Shown here in pieces: positions 1,413-17,478 of a DNA stretch of 41,410 nt. A model generated the notes under the pieces. That model was not told the DNA's origin. It saw only the letters and a program-made list of their open reading frames with translations, and did no database searches. The DNA comes from Pseudonocardiales bacterium (GTDB lineage: Bacteria > Actinomycetota > Actinomycetes > Mycobacteriales > Jatrophihabitantaceae), in the NCBI GenBank assembly GCA_030840445.1, contig JAVEEN010000390.1, positions 1 to 41,410 of the forward strand. The letters run 5' to 3'. A program made the translations under genes and the position numbers. Each line of letters begins with the position of its first letter. Position 1 is the first letter of the stretch.

Positions 1413-3149
1413 TTGTCTGAGAACCTAGACACCAGACCTGTCTCGACTGGTGACCGATACAAGTGGGTCGCGCTATCGAACACCACTCTCGGCGTGTTCA
1501 TGTCCACCCTGGACGGCTCGATCGTCATCATCTCGCTGCCGGCGATCTTCCGCGGCATCCACCTCGATCCGTTGGCGCCAGGGAACATTGTCTATCTGCT
1601 GTGGATGATCATGGGCTACCAGCTCGTTCAGGCGGTTCTCGTCGTCACGCTAGGGCGACTGGGCGACATGTACGGCAGGGTCAGGATCTACAACGCCGGC
1701 TTCTCGGTGTTCTCCGCAGCATCGATCTTCTTGTCGTTCGACCCGTTTCAGGGTGGCCACGGCGCTATCTGGCTCATCGGCTGGCGGCTGATACAGGCGC
1801 TGGGTGGAGCGATGTTGACGGCGAACTCGGCCGCGATCATCACTGACGTCTTTCCGGCTGACCAGCGCGGGCTCGCCTTGGGCATCAACACCATGGCCGC
1901 GCTCGCCGGCCAGTTCGTCGGACTGGTGGCCGGTGGCGTTCTTGCTGCCTGGGATTGGCGAGCGGTCTTCTGGGTAAACGTGCCGATCGGCGTCATCGGC
2001 ACAGTGTGGGCGTACCGAAGTCTGCGAGACTCGGGTGAGCGCCGCCGTTCCACAATCGACTGGTGGGGCAACATAACGTTCGCGGCCGGGTTGGCCATCC
2101 TGCTTGGCTCGATCACAACCGGGATCCAGCCACACGGCGGCCATTCGATGGGTTGGCAAAGCCCGAAAGTCCTTGTCGGGCTGGCCTTGGGCGCCGTATT
2201 GCTTGCGACCTTCTGCTTGATCGAAAGCCGAATCGCCGAACCGATGTTCAACCTCGCGCTGTTCCGCATCCGAGCATTCGCAGCCGGGAACGCGGCAGGT
2301 CTGTTCACCGCGGTTTCGCGAGGCGGCCTGCAGTTCATGCTCATCATCTGGCTGCAGGGGATCTGGCTTCCGCTACATGGCTACGATTACGCCGACACCC
2401 CGCTGTGGGCGGGCATCTTCCTGCTTCCGCTCACCCTTGGATTTCTCATTTCCGGACCGATTGCCGGCTACTTGTCGGATCGCTTCGGCGCCCGCGCCTT
2501 CGCCTCGGCCGGGATGGTGGTCTTCGGTGCGAGCTTCGTGGGTCTGATGGCGTTGCCGATCGACTTCCCCTACTGGGCCTTCGCCGTGCTGATCGCCTGC
2601 AACGGCGTCGGTAGCGGCATGTTCGGAGCACCTAACGGCGCCGCTGTCATGAGCAGCGTGCCTGCTCAGCAGCGCGGCGCGGCATCGGGTATGCGGTCCA
2701 CGTTCCAGAACTCCGGAAGCTCGCTGTCCATCGGTATTTTCTTCTCGTTGATGATCGCTGGACTGGCCGGCACGCTGCCTGACGCCTTGAGCAGCGGACT
2801 GCAACAGCAGGGGGTACCCGGAAACGTGGCACATCAGGTGGGCCAGCTGCCTCCGGTGTCCACCCTCTTTGCCTCGTTTCTGGGCATCAACCCGATTCGG
2901 CAGTTGCTGGCTCCGAGCGGCGTGCTCAACGGCTTGCCCGAGGCGAACGTCGATGTCCTGACTGGGCGCGAATTCTTTCCGCATTTGATCTCGCAGCCCT
3001 TCCATCACGGGCTGATTATCGTCTTCAGCACCGCGGTCGTGTTGTCCGTCCTCGGCGCCGTCGCCTCATTGTTGCGCGGTACGAGAGACAACCGCGGCCA
3101 TATTCTCGAGACGATGACAGCACCTGGCGCGTTCCAAGCCGAGGAGTAG
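1413..3149 (+). CDS. MFS transporter, DHA2 (14-TM) drug/proton antiporter type
   Basis: 578-residue membrane protein with about 14 hydrophobic segments, the size of the EmrB/QacA-like DHA2 group. Motif A appears near residue 84 as GRLGDMYGRVRIYN, after the first helices (NTTLGVFMSTLDGSIVIISLPA). Motif C-like glycine-rich sequence (MAALAGQFVGLVAGGVLA) follows, then the DWRAVFWVNVPIGV segment characteristic of this family. The start is a TTG at 1413 with GATGGAGAG upstream. It lies directly after a MarR gene, which probably controls it. Proton-driven export of a lipophilic compound is the expected role; the substrate is unknown. Confidence 0.9.
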   Translation: MSENLDTRPVSTGDRYKWVALSNTTLGVFMSTLDGSIVIISLPAIFRGIHLDPLAPGNIVYLLWMIMGYQLVQAVLVVTLGRLGDMYGRVRIYNAGFSVFSAASIFLSFDPFQGGHGAIWLIGWRLIQALGGAMLTANSAAIITDVFPADQRGLALGINTMAALAGQFVGLVAGGVLAAWDWRAVFWVNVPIGVIGTVWAYRSLRDSGERRRSTIDWWGNITFAAGLAILLGSITTGIQPHGGHSMGWQSPKVLVGLALGAVLLATFCLIESRIAEPMFNLALFRIRAFAAGNAAGLFTAVSRGGLQFMLIIWLQGIWLPLHGYDYADTPLWAGIFLLPLTLGFLISGPIAGYLSDRFGARAFASAGMVVFGASFVGLMALPIDFPYWAFAVLIACNGVGSGMFGAPNGAAVMSSVPAQQRGAASGMRSTFQNSGSSLSIGIFFSLMIAGLAGTLPDALSSGLQQQGVPGNVAHQVGQLPPVSTLFASFLGINPIRQLLAPSGVLNGLPEANVDVLTGREFFPHLISQPFHHGLIIVFSTAVVLSVLGAVASLLRGTRDNRGHILETMTAPGAFQAEE

Positions 3150-3250
3150 TGGCGAAGGTTAGCGACCCAACACTTGGCCATATTGAGAACAGCGCGACGA
3201 TGCGATGGGTACTCTCGCCACGGAGCACCAACTTACCTAAGGAGCGATCA

Positions 3251-3586
3251 GTGGCCACGGAGACCATCACCCGTCTCGTCGACGACCTCGATGGGGGAAC
3301 GGCTGAGCGGACCGTCTCGTTCGCCTGGGACCGCAAGAGCTATGAAATAGATCTGAGCAAGAAGAACATCGCCGCTTTCGAAAGAGCGATAAGGCCGTAC
3401 CTAACGGCTGCCCGCACGCCTCGAGCAACGAGCGGTGGTGGTCCCCGCCAGGGCAGGCGTGCCGTGTCGACCAGGCGGACCGGCCTATCCGCGATTCGCG
3501 ACTGGGCGCGGGCCAACGGTCACGAGGTATCCGATCGTGGTCGGATTGCCGCCAACGTAGTCGAGGCCTATGAAGCCTCCCGCTAG
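3251..3586 (+). CDS. lsr2: Lsr2-family nucleoid-associated protein (short paralogue)
   Basis: 111-residue Lsr2-like protein. The N-terminal half (VDDLDGGTAERTVSFAWDRKSYEIDLSKKN) is the Lsr2 dimerisation/oligomerisation domain. A basic Gly/Arg linker follows. The C-terminal domain (IRDWARANGHEVSDRGRIAANVVEAY) contains the RGR AT-hook-like motif that inserts into the minor groove of AT-rich DNA. The start is the GTG at 3251, with AAGGAG 6 bp upstream; the frame extends back to 3149 but that part does not look like Lsr2. Lsr2 proteins act like H-NS, silencing foreign or stress-related loci. This may be an accessory paralogue, since the genome copy usually sits elsewhere. Confidence 0.93.
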   Translation: MATETITRLVDDLDGGTAERTVSFAWDRKSYEIDLSKKNIAAFERAIRPYLTAARTPRATSGGGPRQGRRAVSTRRTGLSAIRDWARANGHEVSDRGRIAANVVEAYEASR

Positions 3587-4321: not shown

Positions 4322-4372
4322 ATTGTTGACATGGTCTATTTGTTGACATCATGAATGTTAGCAAGCTAGGGT
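4322..4372. promoter_or_regulatory. GntR operator and acetamidase promoter
   Basis: TTGTTGACAT occurs twice, at 4323-4332 and 4340-4349. The second copy is the left arm of an imperfect 25-bp dyad, TTGTTGACAT / 5 bp / ATGTTAGCAA (4340-4364). A rightward promoter can be read through it: -35 TTGACA (4343-4348), an 18-bp spacer, -10 TAGGGT (4367-4372). The dyad fills the space between -35 and -10, so binding would block acetamidase transcription. The site also lies in the 5' region of the leftward GntR gene, consistent with autoregulation. A near copy occurs at 6871-6895. Confidence 0.75.
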
Positions 4373-4546
4373 AGCGCTGTCCAGCCTGGCGCTGAGTGCC
4401 AGCAATTCAGGCTCGCCGGGCGATGCCCGCAGTCAAGGATCCATTGTGTTCCAGATCAACTGAGCTCCAGCTCAACCCGCCGCCGACCGCCGCGGCGAGT
4501 CTTGCGCGCTGTAAGGCGACCTGGCCGGCCCTCGGAGGCGCTGTCG

Positions 4547-5494
4547 TTGACACACCACTTTCTGAAACCCGTCTACGGCGTGGTCCACGACTATTTCAGC
4601 CGTGCTCTTGCCCCGGCTTTGCACGTCGACTCCGGAGACACCGTGACGGTCACCTCGCTGGATGCCCGCGGCTACCTGCGGGAGCCGTCGGCCCCGGGCG
4701 CTTTCGGTGAGACCTTTCTTCCTGGTGCTCGCGGACACGCACTGTGCGGGCCGATCTTTGTCCGGGGCGCTCGCCCCGGCGACGCGCTCGCCGTCAGACT
4801 GGTGGACCTGAGACCGGGCAGTTGGGGTTGGACGGTCGCTGGTGATCCCGAAGAGCGGTTCACGGACTGCCTCGGTGGTCTACACGATGGGTCGATAGCC
4901 CTGCACTGGCGGTTGGACGTCGATGCCGGGGTCGGCACCAATGATCTCGGGTTCACGGTGGACCTGCGGCCCTTCTTGGGGGTAATAGGCGTGGCACCGG
5001 CCGAGGGTGGCGAGTTTTCCACTACGCCACCGCGTTATTGCGGCGGAAACATCGATTGTAAGGATCTGGTCGAGGGCAGCGTGCTGTACCTCCCGGTCTC
5101 GGTCGAGGGGGCGTTGCTATCCATTGGTGACGGTCACGCGCGCCAAGGCGACGGAGAGGTTTCCGGCACCGCCATCGAATGCCCGATGACGACCGAACTG
5201 GAGTTGACCGTGGTTGCGGACCCGGTGGTGGTGACGCCATACGCGAAGACGCCAACTGGCCGGATCACCTTCGGTTTCGACGCGACGCTGGACAACGCCG
5301 CCGCGGCAGCATTGAACGCAATGCTGACGTGGATGGAGAAGCTCTTCACGGTGACCAGAACACAGGCGCTGGCGCTGGCGAGCACAGTCGTCGATCTCCG
5401 GATCACCCAAGTGGCGAACGGCGTGTGGGGTGTCCACGCGGTGCTCGCTGATGGTGCAATCCGATCCGAGAGTGCCGGGGCGTTCCGGGGCTAG
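4547..5494 (+). CDS. acetamidase/formamidase family protein
   Basis: About 315 residues, near the usual family size. The whole length matches the FmdA/AmdA fold: DSGDTVTV near the start, GPIFVRGARPGDALAVRLVDL, a GGNIDCKDLVEGSVLYLPV block, then SIGDGHARQGDGEVSGTAIECP with conserved acidic and His residues. The family hydrolyses formamide, acetamide or other short amides to the carboxylate and ammonia in the cytoplasm. The TTG at 4547 has GGAGG 8 bp upstream; a start at 4502 is less likely. It is divergent from the GntR gene, with the shared operator in its promoter. Released ammonia or an N-acyl group is probably part of the same catabolic route as the peptide-type operon at 7050; the exact amide is unknown. 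Confidence 0.9.
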   Translation: MTHHFLKPVYGVVHDYFSRALAPALHVDSGDTVTVTSLDARGYLREPSAPGAFGETFLPGARGHALCGPIFVRGARPGDALAVRLVDLRPGSWGWTVAGDPEERFTDCLGGLHDGSIALHWRLDVDAGVGTNDLGFTVDLRPFLGVIGVAPAEGGEFSTTPPRYCGGNIDCKDLVEGSVLYLPVSVEGALLSIGDGHARQGDGEVSGTAIECPMTTELELTVVADPVVVTPYAKTPTGRITFGFDATLDNAAAAALNAMLTWMEKLFTVTRTQALALASTVVDLRITQVANGVWGVHAVLADGAIRSESAGAFRG

Positions 5495-5535
5495 CCTCGA
5501 CGCGATGTCCTCGCTGACCAGCTTCGCCCTGCCGT

Positions 5536-6675
5536 TCAGAGGTCGTTCAACACGGCCTCGATGCGATCAAGGCCTCCCTCGAGTGTTTCCAGGCTGGCCG
5601 CGAATGACAGGCGCAGGTGGCCTTCACCCGATGGGCCGAATTCGGGACCCGAGCGGACGGCCACACCTCCGGCCAGCAGGCGATCGGTGACCTCGGCTGC
5701 AGGCAGCGCGCTCAGGTAACGGGCGAAGATGTAAAACGCACCAGCTGGCTCAATGGCGTCGAGCCGCTCCATCTTCGCAATGCGTGCGGTGAGGTAATCC
5801 CGCCGTTCCTGGTAGGCGGCGAGCATCGGTGCGGCCAGGTCGGGTCCTAGCCTGATCGCTGCCAAGGCGGCCCGCTGTACGGCAGCGTTCACCGAACTGT
5901 TCATGGTGCGATGGACATGCCGGATGGCTGCCGTGATCGGCTCAGCGGCAACGAGATAACCGATCCGCCAGCCGGTCATGGCGTAAGTCTTGGAAAGAGT
6001 CTGGGTGTAGATGAGCCGATCCCGCAGAGATTCCACGGCCAGCGTGGAGGTGAAGGGCTGACCGTCATAGACGATGTCGGCATATGCCTCGTCGGCAAGT
6101 AACAAGGTTTGGGTACCGGCGAGGTGTTCGGCAAGTCGTTGGAGTTCCGCCGATCCGAACACCGCCCCCGTCGGGTTGACGGGATTGCAAAGAATCACCA
6201 TTCGGGCGCCGGCCAGTGACATCGCCAGCCGGTCGAAGTCGAGATGGTGATCGTCCAGAGTAGGTACGAAGACCGGATGTCCGCCCGCCAGTTCAACTGC
6301 GTCCAGATAGAGCGAATACGTGGGTTCGGGGATCACGACCTTGTCGCCGGGATTCACGGTCGCCAGGATCGCGGCAGTGATGGCGCCCGCCCCGCCATGA
6401 CTCACCAGGACGGAGCGATCAGAGTACGGAGCCCCAGACACCTGGGTCGCGGATTCGGCGATCGCCTCGCGCAGCTCCGGGTCGCCGTTCATATCGCCAT
6501 ATCGCGTGTAACCGTCACGGACAGCACGCTGCAACGCCTCGACGATCGGCTCAGGGGTCGGAAAATCCGGCTCGCCCTGTGCGAGCGAGAGCGTCCCCGG
6601 CGGCTGCAAGCCGCCTGCAGGCCTGAGAGAGGCCCGAGCTACTCGTTCTATTGCCTGCGACTGCCGAAACTGCAT
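5536..6675 (-). CDS. PLP-dependent aminotransferase, class I/II (fold type I)
   Basis: 379 residues, typical of aspartate-aminotransferase-like enzymes. Key features: YTRYGDMNGDPELREAI near residue 56, the NPVNPTG motif (N167), D195 in LLADEAYAD which pairs with the PLP pyridine nitrogen, and the Schiff-base lysine K229 in TLSKTYAMTGWRIGY. A C-terminal GHLRLSFA carries the likely substrate-carboxylate Arg. It converts an amino acid to a 2-oxo acid with a partner oxo acid; specificity cannot be read. It is divergent from the transporter/decarboxylase operon, which encodes enzymes able to use a 2-oxo acid (ThDP decarboxylase, 2-hydroxyacid dehydrogenase). Transamination before decarboxylation is an attractive inference. 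It converges on acetamidase with 41 bp between stops. Confidence 0.92.
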   Translation of the reverse strand: MQFRQSQAIERVARASLRPAGGLQPPGTLSLAQGEPDFPTPEPIVEALQRAVRDGYTRYGDMNGDPELREAIAESATQVSGAPYSDRSVLVSHGGAGAITAAILATVNPGDKVVIPEPTYSLYLDAVELAGGHPVFVPTLDDHHLDFDRLAMSLAGARMVILCNPVNPTGAVFGSAELQRLAEHLAGTQTLLLADEAYADIVYDGQPFTSTLAVESLRDRLIYTQTLSKTYAMTGWRIGYLVAAEPITAAIRHVHRTMNSSVNAAVQRAALAAIRLGPDLAAPMLAAYQERRDYLTARIAKMERLDAIEPAGAFYIFARYLSALPAAEVTDRLLAGGVAVRSGPEFGPSGEGHLRLSFAASLETLEGGLDRIEAVLNDL

Positions 6676-6688
6676 GTCCTCATACCTT

Positions 6689-6718
6689 CAATCTCTGGGT
6701 GGGCAATCTCTGGGTGGG
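6689..6718. repeat. 15-bp perfect tandem duplication
   Basis: CAATCTCTGGGTGGG occurs twice head to tail (6689-6703 and 6704-6718), starting 14 bp upstream of the aminotransferase start codon, in its 5' untranslated or promoter region. It may be a simple slippage duplication or a pair of regulator half-sites; the sequence alone does not decide. Confidence 0.85.
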
Positions 6719-6851
6719 CCAGTGCGGAGCGTAGCGATGCCATCATCGGTCAGCCATGCGGCCACGGTCGGTGCCGGAATCGGGCACCGCCGGACGCGGG
6801 CTGACCGGCCGAGGCAGCTCTCTTGTGGATGGGGTACGCCGCGCCGGTGTC

Positions 6852-6895
6852 TTGACCTGATGAAGTCAACTCACTAACATTCCGAATGTCAACAA
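6852..6895 (+). promoter_or_regulatory. promoter of the transporter operon with GntR operator
   Basis: A sigma-70-type promoter is visible: -35 TTGACC (6852-6857), 17-bp spacer, -10 TAACAT (6875-6880). The dyad TCACTAACAT / 5 bp / ATGTCAACAA (6871-6895) overlaps the -10 and the probable start site. Its reverse complement matches the 4340-4364 operator at 10 of 10 bases in one arm and 8 of 10 in the other, with the same 5-bp spacer. Repression by the GntR protein of 3598-4302 is therefore strongly suggested. The 5' leader to the first gene (GTG at 7050) would be about 160 nt. Confidence 0.78.
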
Positions 6896-7049: not shown

Positions 7050-8825
7050 GTGCCTAGATATCGCCGCTGGACCGCAGGCATTGCAGCTTTGACCGCATTC
7101 GGACTCCTGGTCACCGCGTGTACCGGGAAATCGTCCTCGTCATCAGCCACTCCGCACGCCGGTGGCACCCTCACCTTGGGCGGTGTGGGAGACATCGACT
7201 TCATGGATCCCACAGCTGGTTACAACACCGATACGCACACCGAGGAGCGAGCCTGGACCCGGCAGCTGTTCAGCTACCCGGCCAGCAAGGACGCCAAGAC
7301 GGTGAGCACCCCGGTTGGTGATGTGGCCAGCGAGGTTCCGACCGAGGCCAACGGAGGAATCACCGACGGCGGCAACACCTACACCATTCACCTCCGTGGC
7401 GATGTGATGTGGAACTCATCACCGGCGCGGGCCGTAACGGCGGCGGACTTCGTACGCAGCTTCAAGCGGATGTGCAATCCGGTGGCCCCCGTCGGCGCGA
7501 CGAGCTACTTCACCACCACCATCAAGGGCATGGCTGCGTATTGCCGGGCCGAATCCAAGATCCCCGGCACCGCCACCGCAATGGCCAACTACATCAACGG
7601 CAATGAGATAGCGGGAGTTTCTGCGCCCGATGCCAAGACCATCGTCTTTCATCTCACGCATTCCACCAGCGACTTCCTGGACATCATCGCCGAGCCGTTC
7701 GCGTCCGCCGTGCCGGTCGAGTACCTGAAGTACGTCCCGAACAGCCCGGAATTCGATGCTCATCTGCTGTCCGATGGTCCTTACCAGATCAGCAAGTACA
7801 CACCGGGGACCCAGATCGTCTTGGACCGCAACCCTGCGTGGAAGGCCAGCAGCGACCCGATCCGCAAGGCCTACGTCGACAAGATCATCATCAATCAGGG
7901 ACAGACCCCGCAGGCGGTTCAGCAACAGATTCAGGCCGGCACCACGGACATGGGCTGGGACGTCGTCGTCCCGACCCCTGATATACCCGGGTTGACCGGA
8001 GATCCGAACCTGTCCGTCAATTCCAGCGGTGCGGTGAGCTACGCGGTGTTCAATCAGCAAAGTCCCAACCAGAACGCGGCCATGAAGAACCCGAAGGTGC
8101 GGCAGGCGCTGGAATATGCAATCGACAAGACGGCGATCGCCCAGGCCCTCGGCGGCAGCAAGATCGCGACGCCCGCGAGCCAGATTCTCACGCCGATCGA
8201 CATCGGCTACAAGCCGTTCAGTACCTACCCGACGCCGGGGGACAAGGGAGACCCACAGAAGGCCAAGCAGTTGCTGGCCGCCGCCGGTTATCCCAATGGC
8301 CTCACGCTGAAGGTCCTGTTCCCGAATACATCACAGAGCCCGAAGATCGCCGAGCTGATGCAGGCCGACCTCGAGGCCGCGGGCGTGAAGGTGCAGCTGA
8401 TCTCCGCTACCCAGACTGACTTCACGGTTCGCTACATCTCGGATCCGGTAAGTGGACAGCGTGGCCTGTGGGATATCGCGCTGCTGTACTGGGTGCCGGA
8501 CTGGTTCGGTATCAACGGCCGGTCGGTTCTCCAGCCGATGACGGACGGGACCAACTACGGCCCCAACTCGGTCGATTACGGTGACTACAACAGCCCCATC
8601 ACAAACGGACTCGTCCAGCAGGCACTGGCCCTGCCGAGCTCCCAAGCCGACAAGGTCGCTGAGCTGTGGCATCAGGTATCGGTGCAGACCATGGCGGACG
8701 CGGCGCTGATACCGCTGGCGACCGTAGACGTTCCGTTGTACACGTCCTCGCGTCTGATGAACGCCGTCTACCTTCCGATCAACGAAAACTTCGACATCAC
8801 CAATGTCTGGCTGAAGAACGGATGA
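7050..8825 (+). CDS. ABC transporter solute-binding lipoprotein, peptide/nickel (SBP_bac_5) family
   Basis: 591 residues. The N-terminus has a basic stretch (MPRYRRW), a hydrophobic core and the lipobox VTAC with the lipidated Cys at about residue 24, followed by a Ser-rich linker. The mature part is a cluster C binding protein: early VTAADFVRSFKRM and IHLRGDVMWN, central KNPKVRQALEYAIDK, then QKAKQLLAAAGYP, all SBP_bac_5 landmarks. The GTG at 7050 has AGGAGAGG upstream and gives a proper signal peptide; in-frame codons back to 6897 are rejected. It is the first gene of an operon with two ATPases and two permeases. Likely ligands are oligopeptides or related amides; this family also binds sugars and opines, so specificity is open. 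Confidence 0.93.
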   Translation: MPRYRRWTAGIAALTAFGLLVTACTGKSSSSSATPHAGGTLTLGGVGDIDFMDPTAGYNTDTHTEERAWTRQLFSYPASKDAKTVSTPVGDVASEVPTEANGGITDGGNTYTIHLRGDVMWNSSPARAVTAADFVRSFKRMCNPVAPVGATSYFTTTIKGMAAYCRAESKIPGTATAMANYINGNEIAGVSAPDAKTIVFHLTHSTSDFLDIIAEPFASAVPVEYLKYVPNSPEFDAHLLSDGPYQISKYTPGTQIVLDRNPAWKASSDPIRKAYVDKIIINQGQTPQAVQQQIQAGTTDMGWDVVVPTPDIPGLTGDPNLSVNSSGAVSYAVFNQQSPNQNAAMKNPKVRQALEYAIDKTAIAQALGGSKIATPASQILTPIDIGYKPFSTYPTPGDKGDPQKAKQLLAAAGYPNGLTLKVLFPNTSQSPKIAELMQADLEAAGVKVQLISATQTDFTVRYISDPVSGQRGLWDIALLYWVPDWFGINGRSVLQPMTDGTNYGPNSVDYGDYNSPITNGLVQQALALPSSQADKVAELWHQVSVQTMADAALIPLATVDVPLYTSSRLMNAVYLPINENFDITNVWLKNG

Positions 8826-8868: not shown

Positions 8869-9942
8869 GTGTCGCTGCTCGAAGTAGAGGATCTGCAGGT
8901 CTCCTTCTCGACTCCGGACGGGATCTTGCGCGCGGTGCGGGGGATGAGCTTCTCGGTCGAACAGGGCGAGACCCTCGGAATCGTCGGTGAGTCGGGATCG
9001 GGCAAGAGCGTGTCGACGCAGACGATCGTAGGCCTGACCGAGGGAGCGCGGGTCTCCGGTCAGGCTCGGTTCGAGGGTCGAGATCTGCTCACCATGGGCG
9101 ATCGGGATCTGCGGCGGATCCGTGGGGCCGAGATCGGCATGATCTTTCAGGATCCGCTCTCCAGCCTGCACCCGCACTACCGGGTGGGTTGGCAGATCGT
9201 GGAGATGATCCGAGCTCACGAGGCGGTCTCGAAGAAGCAGGCCAGCCTGCGAGCGATCGAATTGCTCGGCCTGGTCGGGATTCCGGCTCCGGAGAGCCGG
9301 GTGCATGACTATCCGCATCAATTCTCCGGTGGGATGCGACAACGGGCCATGATCGCCATGGCGCTGGCGCTCAATCCCAAACTCTTGATTGCCGACGAAC
9401 CGACGACCGCTCTCGACGTAACCGTTCAAGCGCAGATCATCACGTTGATCAAGCGGCTGCAACAGGAGTTCGGCACGGCGGTGATCATGATTACCCATGA
9501 CCTCGGCGTCATTGCCGACATAGCAGACCGGGTGGTGGTCATGTACGCCGGCAAGCCGATGGAATACGCAGACAAGCGGACGTTGTACCACCAACCGCAT
9601 CATCCGTACACCGAGGGACTGATCGGTTCACTGCCCCAAACGGGTGGTCGCGGTCGCCCGCTGAAATCCATTCCCGGTCTGCCGCCCAGCATGGTGCAGG
9701 TACCCCGGGGTTGCGCGTTCCATCCCCGGTGTGGCTACGTTATGGATCGTTGCCTGGATGCCGAACCGCCGATCCGAGGAGTGAACGGTGGCATCGACCA
9801 CCGTTCAGCGTGCTGGCTGCCACCTGAGGCAGTGGGTCGGAGGACGGATGATTCGGCGCTCGCTGAGCAGAGCGCTCGACGCCACGGCGGCGATGCTGTG
9901 ATCGAGCCGGCTTCGGCCGCGCAAGAATCGACTTCAGCATGA
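8869..9942 (+). CDS. peptide-type ABC transporter ATPase (DppD/OppD-like)
   Basis: 357-residue ATP-binding subunit. Walker A GESGSGKS (40-47), Q-loop FQDPLSSLHP (about 93-102), signature FSGGMRQR (152-159), Walker B LLIADEP (172-178) and switch His 210 are all intact. The C-terminal oligopeptide-transporter extension has the Cys motif GCAFHPRCGYVMDRC. An unusually long polar tail of about 50 residues follows. The GTG at 8869 has AGGAG upstream. The gene starts 43 bp after the binding protein and overlaps the next ATPase by ATGA. It forms a heterodimer with that protein to drive the two permeases. Confidence 0.94.
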   Translation: MSLLEVEDLQVSFSTPDGILRAVRGMSFSVEQGETLGIVGESGSGKSVSTQTIVGLTEGARVSGQARFEGRDLLTMGDRDLRRIRGAEIGMIFQDPLSSLHPHYRVGWQIVEMIRAHEAVSKKQASLRAIELLGLVGIPAPESRVHDYPHQFSGGMRQRAMIAMALALNPKLLIADEPTTALDVTVQAQIITLIKRLQQEFGTAVIMITHDLGVIADIADRVVVMYAGKPMEYADKRTLYHQPHHPYTEGLIGSLPQTGGRGRPLKSIPGLPPSMVQVPRGCAFHPRCGYVMDRCLDAEPPIRGVNGGIDHRSACWLPPEAVGRRTDDSALAEQSARRHGGDAVIEPASAAQESTSA

Positions 9943-11006
9943 CCCGGCAAGTGGCACGCGAGCCTGCCTCACAAGTTGCGGCCGAACCCTTGCTGCAGTT
10001 GACCGACGTCGTCAAGCACTTTCCGCTTCGCTCAAGCGGATTGCTCGCAGGCAAGCGGGAGTATCTGCGTGCCGTCGACGGCGTCAGCCTGGAGGTACGC
10101 CGGGGTGAGACGCTGGGCCTGGTCGGTGAGACGGGGTGCGGCAAATCAACCCTTGCTCGTTGCATCACGCGGTTGTACGAGCTGACCTCTGGCACGGTGT
10201 CTTTCGGCAACGCCGACATATCCCGGCTATCTGCGCGGCGGTTGCGCCCGTACCGCCGCAAGCTGCAGATGGTGTTCCAAGACCCGTACGGCTCGCTCAA
10301 CCCACGACGCCGGGTCGGCTCCATTATTGCGGACCCGTTCGCCGCCAACGGCTTGGCCAAAGGGGCAGAACGCAAGCGCAAGGTGCAGGAGCTGATGGAA
10401 CTCGTCGGCCTCAATCCAGAACACTACAACCGCTTTCCAGCGGAGTTCTCCGGCGGACAACGACAACGGATCGGGCTCGCGCGGGCGCTGGCCCTTCGCC
10501 CTGAGGTGGTGGTGTGCGATGAACCGGTTTCGGCCCTCGATGTCTCCATCCAGGCCCAGATCATCAACCTGCTCGCCGAACTTCAGCACAAACTCGGGCT
10601 GACGTACATCTTCATCGCACACGATCTGTCGGTCGTCCGGCACGCCAGCGACCGGATAGCGGTGATGTATCTCGGGCGGATCGTCGAGATTGCCGACACC
10701 GAGGACTTGTTCATACGGCCCCGCCATCCCTATACGAAGGCGCTGCTGTCCGCCGCCCCCACACCGGACCCCGACCTGGTCAACGATGCCGAGCGGATAG
10801 TCCTCACCGGTGAGGTCCCGTCGCCGGTCCGGCCGCCCTCGGGCTGCCGGTTCCATCCCCGCTGTCCCCGCGCGCAGAGCCGTTGCCAGGTCGAGGACCC
10901 GGTGCTGGACAGCAAGAACATCGACGAGAGTGATCGCGCCGTTGCCTGCCACTTCCCGCTCGCCGACGGGGAATCGATGCTGCCCGAGCTGAAGGAGCCG
11001 TCGTGA
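9939..11006 (+). CDS. peptide-type ABC transporter ATPase (DppF/OppF-like)
   Basis: 355-residue partner ATPase. Walker A GETGCGKST (63-71), Q-loop MVFQDPYGSLNPR, signature SGGQRQR (171-177), Walker B VVVCDEP (190-196) and the switch His in FIAHDLSV (about 228). The OppF-type SxLxxGKREYLRAVDGVSL start and the C-terminal GCRFHPRCPRAQSRC motif assign it to the F-type half. The start codon overlaps the previous stop by 4 bp and its own stop overlaps the permease GTG, showing translational coupling. Confidence 0.94.
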   Translation: MTRQVAREPASQVAAEPLLQLTDVVKHFPLRSSGLLAGKREYLRAVDGVSLEVRRGETLGLVGETGCGKSTLARCITRLYELTSGTVSFGNADISRLSARRLRPYRRKLQMVFQDPYGSLNPRRRVGSIIADPFAANGLAKGAERKRKVQELMELVGLNPEHYNRFPAEFSGGQRQRIGLARALALRPEVVVCDEPVSALDVSIQAQIINLLAELQHKLGLTYIFIAHDLSVVRHASDRIAVMYLGRIVEIADTEDLFIRPRHPYTKALLSAAPTPDPDLVNDAERIVLTGEVPSPVRPPSGCRFHPRCPRAQSRCQVEDPVLDSKNIDESDRAVACHFPLADGESMLPELKEPS

Positions 11007-11968
11007 CTCTTACGCCACCGGCGACGGTCGAGGCGGCCGCCGTGAGGGTCGAGCCGGCCGCCGCCGACACGATAGAAGGTCGGAGCCCATGGCAGCTGGC
11101 GTTCGTCCGGCTGCGCCATGACCGGGTGGCCGTCGGATCCTCGGCTGTCATCTGCATCATCGTCTTGCTGGCTGTCTTTGCACCGGTAGTCGCCCACCTC
11201 CTCGGACACGGACCCAATCAGCAATTCCGAACAACGGGATTGAGCGCCGAGGGCATTCCCGTCGGGCCGGGCTCGACGTTTCTGTTCGGAACCGATGATC
11301 TGGGACGCGATGTTCTGGTGCGGGTCCTCTATGGCGCCCGGATATCGTTGTTGGTCGGGGTAGTAGCGTCCGGGCTCGCGGTCGTGCTCGGCGTGATCAT
11401 CGGGCTCGCGGCGGGATACTTCAGCGGAGCGGTCGACACGGTGCTGTCCAGATTCATGGACGTGGTCCTGTCATTGCCCTACCTGATCTTCGCAATTGCG
11501 CTCGTTTCATTGCTCGGCCCGAGCCTGATGGTTTCGGTTGCGGTGATCGCCTTCTTCTCCTGGGCCTCGGTGGGACGGATCGTTCGGGGCCAGGTGCTGT
11601 CGATAAAGGAAAAGGAATTCGTGGAAGCAGCGCGTTCTGTCGGCGCGGGCCATCTGCGGATCATGTTCGTCGACATCCTGCCCAACGTGCTGGCACCGAC
11701 AATCGTCTACGCCACGATGTTGATCCCGCTGTCGATCGTTTTCGAATCGACCTTGTCTTTCCTGGGGATCGGGGTGCTACCGCCGACGGCGACCTGGGGA
11801 AACATGTTGTCCGAGTCGATTGCCTACTACCGGGTTGCCTGGTGGTTTGTCGCCTTCCCCGGCCTGGCGCTGCTGATCACGACGATGGCATTCAACCTAC
11901 TGGGGGACTGCGTGCGCGATGCGTTCGATCCCAGGGGCAACCGCTTGTTCGTCGCGGTAGAAGACTGA
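11003..11968 (+). CDS. peptide-type ABC transporter permease (DppC/OppC-like)
   Basis: 321-residue inner-membrane subunit. A long cytoplasmic N-terminus (residues 1-45) precedes the first TM helix (SSAVICIIVLLAVFAPVV), then the FGTDDLGRDVLVRVLYGARISL segment diagnostic of OppC/DppC permeases. The EAA loop is EFVEAARSVGAGHLRIMFVDILPN, the contact with the ATPases. Five or six TM helices in total. In this operon the permeases follow the ATPases, and C precedes B, unlike the common A-B-C-D-F order. Confidence 0.93.
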   Translation: MTLTPPATVEAAAVRVEPAAADTIEGRSPWQLAFVRLRHDRVAVGSSAVICIIVLLAVFAPVVAHLLGHGPNQQFRTTGLSAEGIPVGPGSTFLFGTDDLGRDVLVRVLYGARISLLVGVVASGLAVVLGVIIGLAAGYFSGAVDTVLSRFMDVVLSLPYLIFAIALVSLLGPSLMVSVAVIAFFSWASVGRIVRGQVLSIKEKEFVEAARSVGAGHLRIMFVDILPNVLAPTIVYATMLIPLSIVFESTLSFLGIGVLPPTATWGNMLSESIAYYRVAWWFVAFPGLALLITTMAFNLLGDCVRDAFDPRGNRLFVAVED

Positions 11969-11987
11969 CGACGGAGAAGGGCCTGAC

Positions 11988-12947
11988 ATGTTGCGTTTTC
12001 TGGTGCGCCGAATCCTCTTCGGCGTGGTCGTGCTGTGGCTGGTTGCCACAGCCGTGTTCGCTATGTACTTCATCGCGCCCCACGATGTGGCCCGAACCTT
12101 GGCCGGACGCCAAGCCAGCGCGGAAACGGTTGCGGCCATCCGTCACAACCTCGGGCTCGACCGGCCGCTCCTGGTCCAGTACGGCAGTTTTCTCTGGAAG
12201 GCCCTGCACGGCAACCTCGGCTACTCGTACACCAATTCGCAGCCGGTGACGACGCTGATCGGCCAAGGTTTGCCCGTGACGGCCTCGCTGGTTGCCGGCG
12301 GTGCGATCCTGTGGTTGGTGATCGGAGTAAGCACCGGCGTGCTGGCCTCGACACATCCGCGCTCGGTGATGGATCGCAGTGCCACTGCTTTCTCGCTCTT
12401 CTTCTACTCGATGCCGACCTTCCTGCTGGGCGAGGTGCTGCTGCTGGTGTTGTTCTTCCGGCTTCACCTGTCGGGTATCGATTGGTTTCCCGGTGCCGGA
12501 TACGTGGCGTTGACCGAGAACCCAATGGAGTGGGCAAGGCATCTGCTGCTTCCGTGGCTCACCATCGCTCTGGTCACCGCGGCAACCTACGTCCGCCTGA
12601 CTCGGGGATCGATGTTGGACGTGCTCGGTGAGGACTACATTCGCACGGCCCGCGCCAAGGGACTGAGTCGGCGCCGGGTGATCTATCGCCACGGACTGCG
12701 GGCGGCCTTGACACCGGTGGTAACCCAATTCGGAATCGATGTCGGTACGCTGCTCGGCGGGGCGATCGTGACGGAGAACGTCTTCGGGTTGCCCGGACTT
12801 GGCGAGCTCGTCATGACGGCACTGTCTAAACAGGACCTCCCGACGATCATCGGCCTCGTCCTGCTCGCGTCGGCATTCGTGGTAGTCGCGAACCTGGTCG
12901 TGGACATCCTGTACTCGGTCCTCGACGCGAGGGTTCGGCTGTCCTGA
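11988..12947 (+). CDS. peptide-type ABC transporter permease (DppB/OppB-like)
   Basis: 319-residue membrane subunit that pairs with the DppC-like protein. It opens with the B-type helix (FLVRRILFGVVVLWLVATAVFAMYF), followed by the periplasmic LGLDRPLLVQYGSFLWKALHGNLGYSY motif. The EAA loop is DYIRTARAKGLSRRRVIYRHGLRAALTP. The GGAG/GAAGGG ribosome binding site lies just before the ATG at 11988, 19 bp after the C-type permease. It is the last transporter gene; an 85-bp gap separates it from the SDR gene and shows no convincing terminator, so the enzyme genes are probably co-transcribed. Confidence 0.93.
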   Translation: MLRFLVRRILFGVVVLWLVATAVFAMYFIAPHDVARTLAGRQASAETVAAIRHNLGLDRPLLVQYGSFLWKALHGNLGYSYTNSQPVTTLIGQGLPVTASLVAGGAILWLVIGVSTGVLASTHPRSVMDRSATAFSLFFYSMPTFLLGEVLLLVLFFRLHLSGIDWFPGAGYVALTENPMEWARHLLLPWLTIALVTAATYVRLTRGSMLDVLGEDYIRTARAKGLSRRRVIYRHGLRAALTPVVTQFGIDVGTLLGGAIVTENVFGLPGLGELVMTALSKQDLPTIIGLVLLASAFVVVANLVVDILYSVLDARVRLS

Positions 12948-13032
12948 GCTGTCTGATTTCGATTGACCCGACCGACGCCTGCTGCGTCGAGTCGCAACAC
13001 AGAGCACGACAACGAAGAGGGGTTTGAGCTGT

Positions 13033-13794
13033 ATGGATCTGAAATTAGCTGGCTCGAGAGCACTGGTCACCGGGGGCACCAGGGGCATCGGCCGTGCCAT
13101 CGTGGAGACCTTGCTCGCTGAGGGAGCGGCGGTATCGTTCTGCGCGCGTGACGCGGCGGCGGTCCTGGAAGCCGAACGTGAACTGTCCGATGGCGGCGGC
13201 AAGGTCATGGGCGCCAGTGTGGATGTGTCCGACGGGGCGGCGCTGGCGGCCTGGGTCGAGGAATCGGCGGCTCGGCTCGGCGGGATCGACATCGTGGTGG
13301 CAAATGTCAGCGCCATGTCGACTCCGGACATCGAGGAGAACTGGACGAAGTGCTTCGAGATCGACCTGATGGGCTCGGTACGCTTGGTCAATGCTGCGCT
13401 GCCCTATCTGGAGGACAGCACCGCCGGTTCGATTGTCACAGTGTCGAGCGTGTCCGGCCGGGAGATCGACTTCTTCGAGGGTCCGTACGGAGCGATCAAG
13501 GCAGCACTGGTCCATTACACCCAGGGAATTGCTCATCGCCTCGCGCCCAAGGGGATAAGGGCGAATACTGTCTCACCCGGCAACACGCTGTTCGACGGCG
13601 GCAGCTGGGCCAGCACGAGGCAGAACCAACCGGACATGTTCGCGGCTACCCTGGCGCTCATTCCGATGGGACGGATGGGCACCGCACAAGAGATGGCGTC
13701 CGCTGTCGCGTTCCTGGCCAGCCCGGTATCGAGTTTCACCAGCGGAACGAACCTGGTCGTTGACGGAGCGCTGACGCGCGGCGTGCAACTGTGA
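13033..13794 (+). CDS. SDR family oxidoreductase
   Basis: 253-residue classical short-chain dehydrogenase. The cofactor motif TGGTRGIG is at 13-20, NVSA corresponds to the NAG motif near 91-94, and the catalytic set is Ser139, Tyr152 and Lys156 (YGAIK). The Arg at 39 in FCARD, after the second beta strand, hints at NADP(H). The ATG at 13033 is preceded by AAGAGGGG; a TTG at 13024 is an alternative. It overlaps the ThDP alpha-subunit gene by GTGA. Placed directly before a 2-oxo-acid decarboxylase, it may reduce the aldehyde product to an alcohol, as SDR sulfoacetaldehyde reductases do. That role is inference from context. Confidence 0.92.
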   Translation: MDLKLAGSRALVTGGTRGIGRAIVETLLAEGAAVSFCARDAAAVLEAERELSDGGGKVMGASVDVSDGAALAAWVEESAARLGGIDIVVANVSAMSTPDIEENWTKCFEIDLMGSVRLVNAALPYLEDSTAGSIVTVSSVSGREIDFFEGPYGAIKAALVHYTQGIAHRLAPKGIRANTVSPGNTLFDGGSWASTRQNQPDMFAATLALIPMGRMGTAQEMASAVAFLASPVSSFTSGTNLVVDGALTRGVQL

Positions 13795-14360
13795 GTACCG
13801 ACGCGCCAGTCGCGGTGCGTGCCGTCGACTCGCAGGCCGACCTCCTCGAACGCCGCAGCCAGGCAGTAATCGATGGTGTCGAGTCAATCGATCCGGACTT
13901 CGTTCTGCATCTGGCGAGCAGCACGCTCAAGATTGTGCTCGACCACTTCATAGCCGGCGACGGCGTGCGAGCGGGCCGGCAGGTTTTTGCAATGCCTCGC
14001 GAAGAGGAAGGGGTAGCCATCGCTTCCGGCCTCGAACTTGCCGGTTCACGGTCCGTTCTGATCTTTCAGGACAACGGCATAGGTAACCTGCTCACCGCGC
14101 TGCTGACGCTTCCCCAGCCCTATCACCTGCCGTTGTTCGGTGTCGTCACCCGACGTGGTGGCCTGGGTGAGTACAACTCGATGATCCACACGGTCAGCGA
14201 GCGAACCGAGGCGCTGCTCGACGCTGCTGGTGTCAGGTGGTTCCAGCTGGACGCACGCACGCCGGTCGATCGCTGGGCGGTGGAGATCAAGCGGGCGTGG
14301 GATTTCTCGCGCGCGACGCACAGGCCGATATTCGTCCTGGTGAACCTTATGGGAGGGTGA
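13791..14360 (+). CDS. ThDP-dependent decarboxylase alpha subunit, sulfopyruvate/phosphonopyruvate decarboxylase type
   Basis: 189 residues carrying only the pyrimidine-binding (PYR) half of a ThDP enzyme. The acidic motif REEEGVAIASG (70-80) contains the Glu that activates the cofactor. FQDNGIGN (92-99) and a GVVTRRGGLGEYN loop resemble ComD and the N-terminal half of phosphonopyruvate decarboxylase. The size matches split ComD subunits. The cofactor-diphosphate half is the next gene, which begins 6 bp downstream, so the two form an alpha-beta enzyme. It probably decarboxylates a 2-oxo acid with a polar side chain to an aldehyde. Whether the substrate is sulfopyruvate, phosphonopyruvate or another oxo acid is not readable. 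Confidence 0.86.
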   Translation: MSTDAPVAVRAVDSQADLLERRSQAVIDGVESIDPDFVLHLASSTLKIVLDHFIAGDGVRAGRQVFAMPREEEGVAIASGLELAGSRSVLIFQDNGIGNLLTALLTLPQPYHLPLFGVVTRRGGLGEYNSMIHTVSERTEALLDAAGVRWFQLDARTPVDRWAVEIKRAWDFSRATHRPIFVLVNLMGG

Positions 14361-14365
14361 GCGCG

Positions 14366-14968
14366 ATGGCTATTGAACGTGCAGACGTGTTGCGGCAGCT
14401 TGATGCCGGCTTCACCGATTCGCCGGTCGTGTTGAGCCTCGGCGGTACGGCACGGGAAATGCTCGCCGTGGCTGGTCGAAAGGGAAACCACCTGATCAGC
14501 CTGGACGCGATGGGCCAGACGATCTCGCTGACCTTGGGCTTGGCTCTCGGCCTGCAGGAGACTCGTCCGGACGAGAAGGTCGTCGTCGTCGATGGTGACG
14601 GGTCATTGATCATGGGCCTGTCCGTCGTGAGTACCGCGGGACACCTCAAGCCGAAGAACCTCGTGGTATTCGTGCTGGACAACGGTGTGTATCTGGCCAC
14701 CGGTGGTCAGCCGACCGCTTCTGCCGACATCGACATGGTTGCCGTGGCCAAAGCTTGCGGCTGGCGCGATGCAAGAGATGTCCGGACGTCCGAGGAGTTG
14801 GCGGATGCTGTCTCGTGGGCCGCGTCGGCACCGGGGCCGGTCCTGATCCGGGTGTACATCGGCACGAAGCAACTACAGACCAATTACTTTCTCGAGGATC
14901 CAGCCGTCCTGGCCGAGGACTTTCGTCGCTGGCTTCGATCCACGCAGCCCTCGGTGTCAGTCGGCTGA
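14366..14968 (+). CDS. ThDP-dependent decarboxylase beta subunit, sulfopyruvate/phosphonopyruvate decarboxylase type
   Basis: 200 residues forming the diphosphate-binding (PP) half. The ThDP/Mg motif is present: GDG at 77-79 and Asn106 in VFVLDNGVY, a 30-residue span as expected. Gly-rich DAMGQTISLTLGLALG precedes it, as in ComE and phosphonopyruvate decarboxylases. The ATG at 14366 has GGGAGG upstream; a GTG at 14357 is too close to that site. It works only with the alpha subunit encoded next to it. The C-terminal YFLEDPAVLAEDFRRWL is an extension also seen in ComE-like proteins. Confidence 0.87.
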   Translation: MAIERADVLRQLDAGFTDSPVVLSLGGTAREMLAVAGRKGNHLISLDAMGQTISLTLGLALGLQETRPDEKVVVVDGDGSLIMGLSVVSTAGHLKPKNLVVFVLDNGVYLATGGQPTASADIDMVAVAKACGWRDARDVRTSEELADAVSWAASAPGPVLIRVYIGTKQLQTNYFLEDPAVLAEDFRRWLRSTQPSVSVG

Positions 14969-14997: not shown

Positions 14998-16455
14998 ATG
15001 CGGATCTCGGTCATTGCATCCTTCGATGAGCACGACGCAGACGTCACGGTGCTGCCGGTGCTGCGGGCGGCGGAGTTACCGCCGGTCACCCGGGCGACCG
15101 GTGCCGCACTCGGACTCGACCTCGGCAGCATTGCGCAACGGTTCGAACTCGACAAACCAGGCGAGCACTGTTGGATTCCCGACAATGGCGCACACCGGGG
15201 CGGTGATGTGCTGCTGGTGCAGGTGAGCGAGCCGGCAGACGGTAGCGTCACCGCCGACTCCCTGCGCCAGGCCGCGACCCGGGCGGCCAGAGCCATTCGC
15301 CGTCCCAGGGTCAACTGCGCGCTCACCGCGGTGGGCCTCGCCAGCGGGGACGCTGCCGGCATCGTCACCGATGCGTTCGTACTGGGTGGCTACAATTTCG
15401 ACCGTTACAAGACCGCCGCGTCCGGCCGTCATCCCGCGATCGAGGAGCTCTTCCTCAGCGGCGTCAACGAATCCGACGTGGAGATCGCTCGGATCATCGC
15501 CGAGGCTACGAACTTCTCGCGGGACCTGACCAACCTTCCGGCGGGAGACCTGACCCCGCATGGCCTTGCTGATACTGCCCGTGACCAGGCCGAGGTGCAC
15601 GGTTTCTCCTTCCGGCTGCTGGACAACGACCAGCTGTTGGCCGGAGGGTTCGGGGGATTGGTCGCGGTAGGGGCGGGCAGCGTGAACCCACCCGTCCTCA
15701 TCGAGCTCGCCACCGGCGACCCTGGGGCCGGCGACCACACCGCGCTCGTGGGTAAGGGCATTACGTTCGACACCGGTGGTCTCGACCTCAAACGCCTGGA
15801 TGCGATGAGCACGATGAAGTGCGACATGGCCGGAGCCGCGAGCATCCTGGCTGTGATGACAGCCCTCCGTCGGCTCGGCTGCCCGGCCAACGTGCGGGCC
15901 TACCTTGCCTGCGCCGAGAACATGCCGAGCGGCAGCGCCGTTCGTCCCGGAGATATCCTCACCCATCGCAACGGCACCACGAGTGAGATGATCAGCCCGG
16001 ACGCCGAAGGCCGTCTCGTACTTGCCGATGCCCTGGCATTGGCGGCCGAAAGCGCACCGGCGCGCATGATCGACATCGCAACCCTGACCGGATCAACCGC
16101 GCTGGGTACCGATCTGTGGGCCGTGATGGGAACCGACCGCACCCTCGCTGCGCAGCTGGTCGCCGCCGGTCAGCAGTGTGGCGAACCAGGCTGGGAGCTG
16201 CCCTTGTGGTCCAACTATCGCAAGGCCATCGAGTCCGAGGTCGCTGACGTCAAGAATCTACAAACCGGTTTGGTCGCGGACTTCGGAGCGATTCTCGGCG
16301 GCCTGTACCTGCGAGAGTTCGTCGGGGAAATACCTTGGGTGCACATGGATATCGGTTCCTCGGCGTTCCGGCATCAGCCCGACGAGATGTGGGCCGCCGG
16401 CGCAACTGGAAACCCGACCCGAACCCTCATCCGTTACCTGGTCGACCATGCCTGA
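14998..16455 (+). CDS. M17 (leucyl aminopeptidase) family metallopeptidase
   Basis: 485 residues with the two-metal M17 catalytic domain at the C-terminus. Metal and catalytic residues are in place: K253 and D258 in VGKGITFDTGG, K265, D276 in KCDMAGA, and D335, E337 and R339 in SPDAEGRL. The canonical NTDAEGRL is altered to SPDAEGRL, and DMGGAA to DMAGAA, so it is a divergent member. These enzymes release N-terminal amino acids from peptides in the cytoplasm, usually as hexamers; some act on special dipeptides or amides. GAGGAGAG precedes the ATG. As the last gene of the transporter operon it probably hydrolyses the imported peptide-like substrate. Confidence 0.92.
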   Translation: MRISVIASFDEHDADVTVLPVLRAAELPPVTRATGAALGLDLGSIAQRFELDKPGEHCWIPDNGAHRGGDVLLVQVSEPADGSVTADSLRQAATRAARAIRRPRVNCALTAVGLASGDAAGIVTDAFVLGGYNFDRYKTAASGRHPAIEELFLSGVNESDVEIARIIAEATNFSRDLTNLPAGDLTPHGLADTARDQAEVHGFSFRLLDNDQLLAGGFGGLVAVGAGSVNPPVLIELATGDPGAGDHTALVGKGITFDTGGLDLKRLDAMSTMKCDMAGAASILAVMTALRRLGCPANVRAYLACAENMPSGSAVRPGDILTHRNGTTSEMISPDAEGRLVLADALALAAESAPARMIDIATLTGSTALGTDLWAVMGTDRTLAAQLVAAGQQCGEPGWELPLWSNYRKAIESEVADVKNLQTGLVADFGAILGGLYLREFVGEIPWVHMDIGSSAFRHQPDEMWAAGATGNPTRTLIRYLVDHA

Positions 16456-16464
16456 TAGCTGCGG

Positions 16465-17394
16465 TTACGAGCGTGGGTGCGCGGCGTTGCCGTCCACGAC
16501 GACGTTCTCCAGCGGCTCTCCTGCGACATAGCGCTCGATCTGCGCCGTGATCAGGCGGTACGCGCGAGTGTCCCAGCCAGGTGCGCCGCCACCGACGTGC
16601 GGAGTGATCACCAGATTGGGCGCTTCCCACAACGGATGCTCGGCGGGCAGCGGCTCGGGGTCGACGACATCGAGCCCAGCCCGCAGACGACCCGATTGCA
16701 GCTCGGCGAGCAGGGCAGCTGTGACCACGGTAGGCCCCCGGCCGACATTTACCAGGATCGCGTGATCCTTCATCGCGGAAAGGAACCCGGCGTCCACGAG
16801 GCCCTGGGTGGCGGCGGTCAGGGGCAATGCGAGGACGACCACATCGTGTGCGGGCAGTACATCGGGCAACGCCTCGAAGCCGATGACGCCGGCGCGAGCG
16901 GTTCTGCCCATCAGCGTGATCGAGGCTCCCAACGTCTCGAGACAAGCGGCGACCTTGCTGCCGATGTCACCGGCTCCCAGGATCAGGACGCGCTTGTCGG
17001 CAACCGTCTCCCGCTCGCCGGCATCCCAGACCTGGTCGGCCTGCTGCCCGAGGTACCGAGGCAGTTCGCGGATATGAGCCAGAATCAACGTGACAGCTAT
17101 CTCGGCTGTGGAGAGCCCATGCACACCTCGCCCGTTGCACAGCGTCACGCCTGGTGGCAATGCGCCCAGCCAGGCATCGACGCCGGCCGAGATCACCTGC
17201 AGTACCTTCAGCTTCTCAAACCTCGCCAGCTGGGTCCGGGTGAGTGCCTCCTTCACGTAGCTGCCGACCAGAAACTCGGTGTCGTCGAGTCCGGGCGGCT
17301 CCGGGCCGGTGCCGTCCCAGACGATGATCTCGGTGCCGGCGGGGTCACCGACGAGCAGCCGCGCACGCGCATCGGGTAGGCAGACCACCGTCAT
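16465..17394 (-). CDS. D-isomer-specific 2-hydroxyacid dehydrogenase, NAD-binding
   Basis: 309 residues. The Rossmann motif LILGAGDIGSKVA is followed by LMGRT after the second strand, where Arg suggests NADP or relaxed cofactor use. Catalytic residues of the family are present: Arg in NVGRGP, Glu in DPEPLPAEHPLW, and His in ITPHVGG. It interconverts a 2-oxo acid and a D-2-hydroxy acid. The ATG at 17394 has GATGAGG at good distance; an upstream start at 17424 is not needed. It converges on the M17 gene with only 9 bp between stops. Context suggests that it acts on the same 2-oxo acid as the ThDP enzyme, possibly as an entry or side branch. Confidence 0.91.
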   Translation of the reverse strand: MTVVCLPDARARLLVGDPAGTEIIVWDGTGPEPPGLDDTEFLVGSYVKEALTRTQLARFEKLKVLQVISAGVDAWLGALPPGVTLCNGRGVHGLSTAEIAVTLILAHIRELPRYLGQQADQVWDAGERETVADKRVLILGAGDIGSKVAACLETLGASITLMGRTARAGVIGFEALPDVLPAHDVVVLALPLTAATQGLVDAGFLSAMKDHAILVNVGRGPTVVTAALLAELQSGRLRAGLDVVDPEPLPAEHPLWEAPNLVITPHVGGGAPGWDTRAYRLITAQIERYVAGEPLENVVVDGNAAHPRS

Positions 17395-17478
17395 CGAATA
17401 CACCTCATCCTGAACGGACCTCATTACCTGGCGGAAGCGCCGATACGGTGATTCTGACAGGGGACACCCTCGAGTTGC

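Follow-up and report, generated by a model that had tools for sequence, protein, structure and literature searches.

A predicted 10-bp operator of an FCD-type GntR regulator at three promoters of a conserved acetamidase-like, transporter and ThDP-enzyme gene cluster

Two related dyads in the 41,410-nt stretch of Pseudonocardiales DNA analyzed here (the window; contig JAVEEN010000390.1 of assembly GCA_030840445.1) are very likely operator sites of the neighboring FCD-type GntR protein, which would act as an autoregulated local repressor over three promoters. The recognized core is probably the 10-bp arm TTGTTGACAT, a GT-N2-AC palindrome and a variant of ATGTTAACAT in related regulators. The gene cluster itself is unstudied, and the switch is of an ordinary bacterial kind. 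Binding, repression and ligand are inferred here from sequence comparison.

The elements lie at 4340-4364 (TTGTTGACAT-CATGA-ATGTTAGCAA) and 6871-6895 (reverse complement, TTGTTGACAT-TCGGA-ATGTTAGTGA). As described in the initial annotation, one arm is identical (10/10), the other agrees at 8/10 and both spacers are 5 bp; the spacer letters differ, with an identity of 20/25 over the whole element. Internal symmetry is 8/10 in the first copy and 6/10 in the transporter copy. When both intergenic regions were dinucleotide-shuffled 300 times, a single shuffle gave a best 25-mer match that reached 20. Taken alone, the resemblance of the two elements is suggestive; the pair is firm because of its rarity in the genome and its conservation in four relatives.

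The assembly of the organism comprises 4.34 Mb in 402 contigs and is 92% complete. A genome-wide search with the dyad pattern at ≤3 mismatches matched the two known places only, and no unrelated copies were found. Since the genome is a fragmented MAG, a further site could lie on missing sequence. The shorter TTGTTGACAT occurs five times in the genome, three of these in the window.

A search of GTDB genomes with the regulator gave four orthologues, in a Pseudonocardiales MAG (98% identity), Mycobacterium sp. AZCC_0083 (84%), a Mycobacterium MAG (83%) and a Frankiales MAG (81%); none was found in 160 genomes of another genus of the order. In all four relatives, gntR is divergent from the acetamidase-like gene and the aminotransferase gene from the transporter operon, and the operon order through the SDR and ThDP genes is the same as far as the contigs extend. 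Both sites are kept in these relatives, with 19/25 and 21/25 identical columns across the five sequences, compared with 35/109 and 116/317 in the remaining columns of these alignments (Fisher p 7e-5 and 4e-6). The five orthologous clusters include two close pairs and represent about three independent lineages. The sites and the gene order were kept even though, in three of the four orthologous clusters, the proteins have diverged to 74-86% identity.

Among 399 genomes of the order, the consensus (≤3 mismatches) was found only in the three with an orthologous regulator, two copies in each, and in none of the other 396; the reversed consensus, used as a control, gave zero matches. The same sites came out of the genomes behind the four orthologous loci; the transporter copy of the two mycobacteria is too divergent for the pattern but visible in the alignment. 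This co-occurrence, together with an independent motif from distant homologues, upholds the assignment of the element as the predicted operator of the adjacent FCD-type GntR.

The distant homologues (37-51% identity) come from other families of the order and from Streptomyces plasmids, and an operator-like TGTCnnAATGTTAACATTnnGACA or a close variant stands upstream of these FCD-type GntR genes. The core [AT]TGT[TC][AG]ACA[TA] was present upstream of 28/28 distant homologues sharing, with small variations, the DNA-binding signature of the window protein (PARRRGL...VSRGPVREAL...WHRGA); these homologues form one clade in the protein tree and do not count as 28 independent events; it was present upstream of 0/3 homologues without the signature. 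A position matrix built from 12 distant loci, none from this cluster, was applied to the 41,401 positions of the window, and 4323, 4340 and 6886 were joint first. The window cores differ from the family core at 2/10 positions and are without its flanking TGTC/GACA boxes. They fit the TKGT/ACMA rule of the FadR subfamily (PMC4494728), in which GT and AC are 2-3 bp apart, with a spacing of 2: the window core reads TTGT-TG-ACAT and the family core ATGT-TA-ACAT. In the mycobacterial clusters L019 and L020, the transporter left arm is exactly GAATGTTAACATTC, a perfect palindrome, with 26.6 bits in each by the core14 matrix. None of the papers searched had the core sequence together with GntR.

In the protein tree, the five cluster regulators form one clade beside a VOC-linked clade, with long branches that make the deeper position unsafe. 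At the loci L035-L056 and L058-L062, a perfect or near-perfect TGTCnnAATGTTAACATTnnGACA was observed upstream of the FCD/GntR gene. In 12/12 inspected loci, its neighbor is a VOC (glyoxalase-like) gene that is divergent and strongly conserved; this divergon is widespread.

Both promoters read by the initial annotation, TTGACA-18-TAGGGT and TTGACC-17-TAACAT, are present and conserved in relatives. It had missed a minus-strand gntR promoter (TGGACA-17-TAACAT), the third TTGTTGACAT at 4323-4332 and the TTGAC-N8-GTCAA at 6852-6869 (Table 1). The -10 box of the gntR promoter, TAACAT at 4355-4360 (TAACTT in two relatives), lies inside the right arm of the dyad. The acetamidase -35 box TTGACA sits in the core operator at 4340-4349, which also covers the start region of the gntR promoter, so that this single copy could act on both divergent promoters; the acetamidase -10 box reads TAGACT in one relative. 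The transporter promoter (-35 TTGACC at 6852-6857, 17 bp, -10 TAACAT at 6875-6880) is kept in five genomes.

Since the right arm contains the conserved TAACAT and varies elsewhere, most at the transporter site (6-7/10 to the core), a core operator placed 5 bp downstream of the -10 box in both the gntR promoter and the transporter promoter can account for the 25-bp symmetry. In each dyad, the second arm may be nothing more than a -10 box, or it may be a weak second site. The reading of the 25-bp dyad as one operator was not supported, the family core being the 10-bp arm and the other arm coinciding with the -10 box.

Two copies of TTGTTGACAT lie 17 bp apart within 4323-4349. The additional one at 4323, in an insertion of about 18 bp missing from the closest relative, probably arose by recent tandem duplication within the gntR leader; its absence from all four relatives ruled it out as a conserved third subsite. 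A possible auxiliary site is the TTGAC-N8-GTCAA, centred 22.5 bp away from the centre of the dyad.

Table 1. Genes, promoter boxes and predicted operator sites of the cluster (window coordinates)
Feature	Position	Strand	Evidence
gntR, FCD-type GntR regulator, 234 aa	3598..4302	-	Pfam GntR (PF00392) 57.6 bits, cut-off 27; FCD (PF07729) 77.8 bits, cut-off 24.3; 81-98% identical orthologues in four genomes
Third exact TTGTTGACAT, inside insertion found only in this genome	4323..4332	+	Absent from L018-L021 in alignment
Predicted core operator TTGTTGACAT, left arm of dyad	4340..4349	+	Conserved in 5/5 genomes (ATGTTGACAT in L020); tied best matrix match in window
Right arm of dyad, TTGCTAACAT on minus strand	4355..4364	-	8/10 to family core, also explained by -10 box
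-10 TAGGGT of acetamidase promoter	4367..4372	+	18 bp from TTGACA 4343-4348; TAGGGT or TAGACT at 18 bp in all five genomes
-35 TGGACA of gntR promoter, 17 bp from TAACAT	4378..4383	-	TGGACA-17/18-TAAC(A/T)T in all five genomes
Acetamidase/formamidase-like protein	4547..5494	+	Pfam FmdA_AmdA 113.6 bits; 74-95% identical in relatives
Class I/II aminotransferase	5536..6675	-	Pfam Aminotran_1_2 219 bits
TTGAC-N8-GTCAA, possible weak second site over -35 and spacer of transporter promoter	6852..6869	.	TTGACC and AGTCAACTC identical in five genomes
Weak arm of second dyad, contains -10 TAACAT (6875-6880)	6871..6880	+	TTGACC-17-TAACAT in 5/5 genomes
Predicted core operator TTGTTGACAT of transporter promoter	6886..6895	-	14-bp (core14) matrix best window match at 6884, 16.5 bits
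Family 5 substrate-binding lipoprotein, first operon gene, GTG start after AGGAGAG	7050..8825	+	Pfam SBP_bac_5 211 bits; start conserved
Dpp/Opp-type importer, two ABC ATPases and two permeases	8869..12947	+	Pfam for 2/4; 79-99% identical in four relatives
SDR oxidoreductase and two-subunit ThDP enzyme, related to sulfopyruvate/phosphonopyruvate decarboxylases	13024..14968	+	NCBIfam matches below equivalog cut-offs; conserved in relatives
M17 leucyl aminopeptidase, 3' end of operon here	14998..16455	+	Pfam 331 bits

Each 25-bp element might instead hold two operators, occupied by two dimers with 15 bp between centres, the second arm being both a weaker site and the -10 box. This arrangement is possible but doubtful. 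The right arm at 4355 scored 10.1 bits with the distant-homologue matrix, fifth of the 41,401 positions, with 8/10 agreement to the family core; the family often has paired sites and extra half-boxes (PMC4494728), and Atu1419 is a tetramer binding two sites (PMC7797058). The transporter right arm, however, reaches just 6-7/10, its conserved part being chiefly the -10 hexamer TAACAT, and in L019/L020, where the transporter left arm is a perfect core, the right arm remains at 6/10. It is improbable that one dimer recognizes the whole dyad as one long palindrome, as initially proposed: GntR/FCD proteins read GT-N2/3-AC boxes, while such a unit would put the inner boxes in AC...GT order, the symmetry centre in relatives is the core itself, and the symmetry of the transporter site is merely 6/10. 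The spacer is palindromic too (TCnGA) in several copies among the five genomes, which would suit such a palindrome.

The sites could belong to a different regulator, with the adjacent gntR as just one target; the genome has further GntR/FCD genes, a paralogue at C115 and another on contig C21. Such an assignment is very improbable, since the site is confined to genomes with the window regulator, the same core stands upstream of its homologues elsewhere and the closest paralogue has neither the signature nor the core. The slimmest chance was given to conserved promoter boxes (TTGACA, TAACAT) creating the resemblance by themselves, with no operator. Much of each arm does consist of -35 or -10 hexamers, but the TTGTTGACAT at 6886-6895 lies downstream of the transporter -10, where no hexamer is needed, and is kept in five genomes; promoter boxes, moreover, would not be limited to genomes with the regulator.

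With the neighboring GntR protein as the preferred regulator, its core target would be the 10-bp TTGTTGACAT, with GT and AC boxes 2 bp apart. One copy would act just downstream of the TAACAT of the gntR promoter and another from the equivalent place in the transporter/SDR/ThDP promoter, the first also holding the -35 box of the acetamidase promoter. Bound regulator would block RNA polymerase at all three promoters. Its release probably depends on a small carboxylate that derives from the compound taken up or is formed as the encoded enzymes degrade it. Sites placed over the -10/start region and over a -35 box agree with autoregulation and with steric blocking as the mode of repression, and repression rather than activation is the presumed sign of the regulation.

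The regulator falls in the FCD/FadR subfamily, with an N-terminal GntR winged helix and a C-terminal FCD domain; it did not reach the cut-off of the phosphonate-associated regulator phnR_burk (TIGR03338, 126 vs 271.5 bits). Its start was set at 4302 and not at 4332, as the 4302 start is common to L018, which is without the upstream extension. The Asp and three His of the FCD metal site, whose ligand residues are named in PMC6608401, are present (D148, H152, H198 and H220, aligned with the TM0439 chain), consistent with a carboxylate ligand. A small protein at 3149-3586, which resembles Lsr2 by eye and has no NCBIfam match, adjoins gntR; among relatives, it is found beside gntR only in L018.

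The earlier idea of one local regulon of about 11-12 kb held for gntR, the acetamidase-like gene and the transporter/ThDP operon, with synteny in five genomes, and was not supported for the aminotransferase. The relatives keep this gene in the cluster. It starts 196 bp away from the site, and no -10-like hexamer at proper spacing was seen by eye on its strand there. The acetamidase-like gene has a TTG start, with ATG at the equivalent place in L021, and its product belongs only to the broad FmdA_AmdA family, below the cut-off of formamidase FmdA (NF045496, 74.2 vs 500 bits). The ThDP enzyme shares its two-subunit layout with sulfopyruvate decarboxylase and did not reach the cut-offs of that enzyme (TIGR03845/TIGR03846, 72.0 vs 147.95 and 112.8 vs 221.5 bits) or of phosphonopyruvate decarboxylase (TIGR03297, 48.8 and 122.4 vs 312.5 bits). 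A search of a plasmid collection with its alpha subunit gave no close relative, all matches being <60% identical.

The M17 aminopeptidase lies outside the conserved cluster, since in L063 and L064 it does not follow the ThDP beta gene, so the word "peptide" derives from the importer family alone, and peptide metabolism was not supported. A convergent D-2-hydroxyacid dehydrogenase gene (16465-17424) stands with the aminopeptidase at the operon end, and neither follows the ThDP beta gene in the two relatives.

Elsewhere in the same genome, a second ABC (peptide)-importer substrate-binding protein operon has an exact TTGTTGACAT immediately before its ribosome-binding site (contig C21; L065:12594-12603). 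This copy is kept in a genome that has the regulator (G004) and broken in one without it (G007). By an estimate from base composition, chance alone would give one or two such 10-mers in the genome; this copy could mark a distant regulon member or be a chance match. A conserved AATCGTTGAACGATC (L065:12503-12683) upstream of the same importer operon may serve a different regulator as its operator, for example the FCD/GntR-like protein whose gene lies on C21.

Among known systems, Atu1419, an FCD/VanR-type GntR of Agrobacterium fabrum, has a 10-bp GT-N2-AC operator (ATGTATACAT), a metal-binding FCD domain and autoregulation, with two operator copies in its own intergenic region, one overlapping a -10 box (PMC7797058). 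In contrast to the window regulator, its targets are in hydroxycinnamate degradation, its ligand is another one, and a tetramer and looping are known for it (PMC7797058). HypR of Streptomyces coelicolor is likewise an actinobacterial FCD-type repressor of a catabolic operon and of itself, and its own site covers the -10 region, but its motif is CTNTGC(A/C)ATGTCAC and it controls a larger regulon and hydroxyproline catabolism (PMC6608401). The VOC-linked FCD/GntR regulators of Mycobacteriales and Streptomyces (L035-L062) share the DNA-binding signature and have the core ATGTTAACAT, whereas their operator carries TGTC/GACA-like flanks and lies between the regulator and a divergent VOC gene (12 loci inspected).

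A literature search on acetamidase control found only the Mycobacterium smegmatis system (amiE; AmiA, AmiC, AmiD; PMC12719403). It also concerns a regulated amidase gene, in a related genus, but it has five genes with two positive regulators and one negative (PMC12719403), and the window acetamidase-like gene is only a distant amidase-family member by comparison (74 vs 500 bits, formamidase cut-off).

Tentatively, the cluster might encode an undescribed catabolic pathway in which an amide or a peptide-like amino compound enters through a Dpp-type importer and is degraded by the acetamidase-like hydrolase, the aminotransferase, the two-subunit ThDP decarboxylase and the SDR, while the regulator senses a 2-oxo acid intermediate. 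If so, the regulator would be kin to a family otherwise guarding a VOC gene, with its operator changed. For an unstudied regulator, and for an 11-gene cluster that occurs in one Mycobacterium isolate genome and several MAGs, the analysis provides a precise predicted operator together with its predicted targets, and it ties the site to a conserved TGTCnnAATGTTAACATTnnGACA that precedes many FCD regulator genes of Mycobacteriales and Streptomyces.
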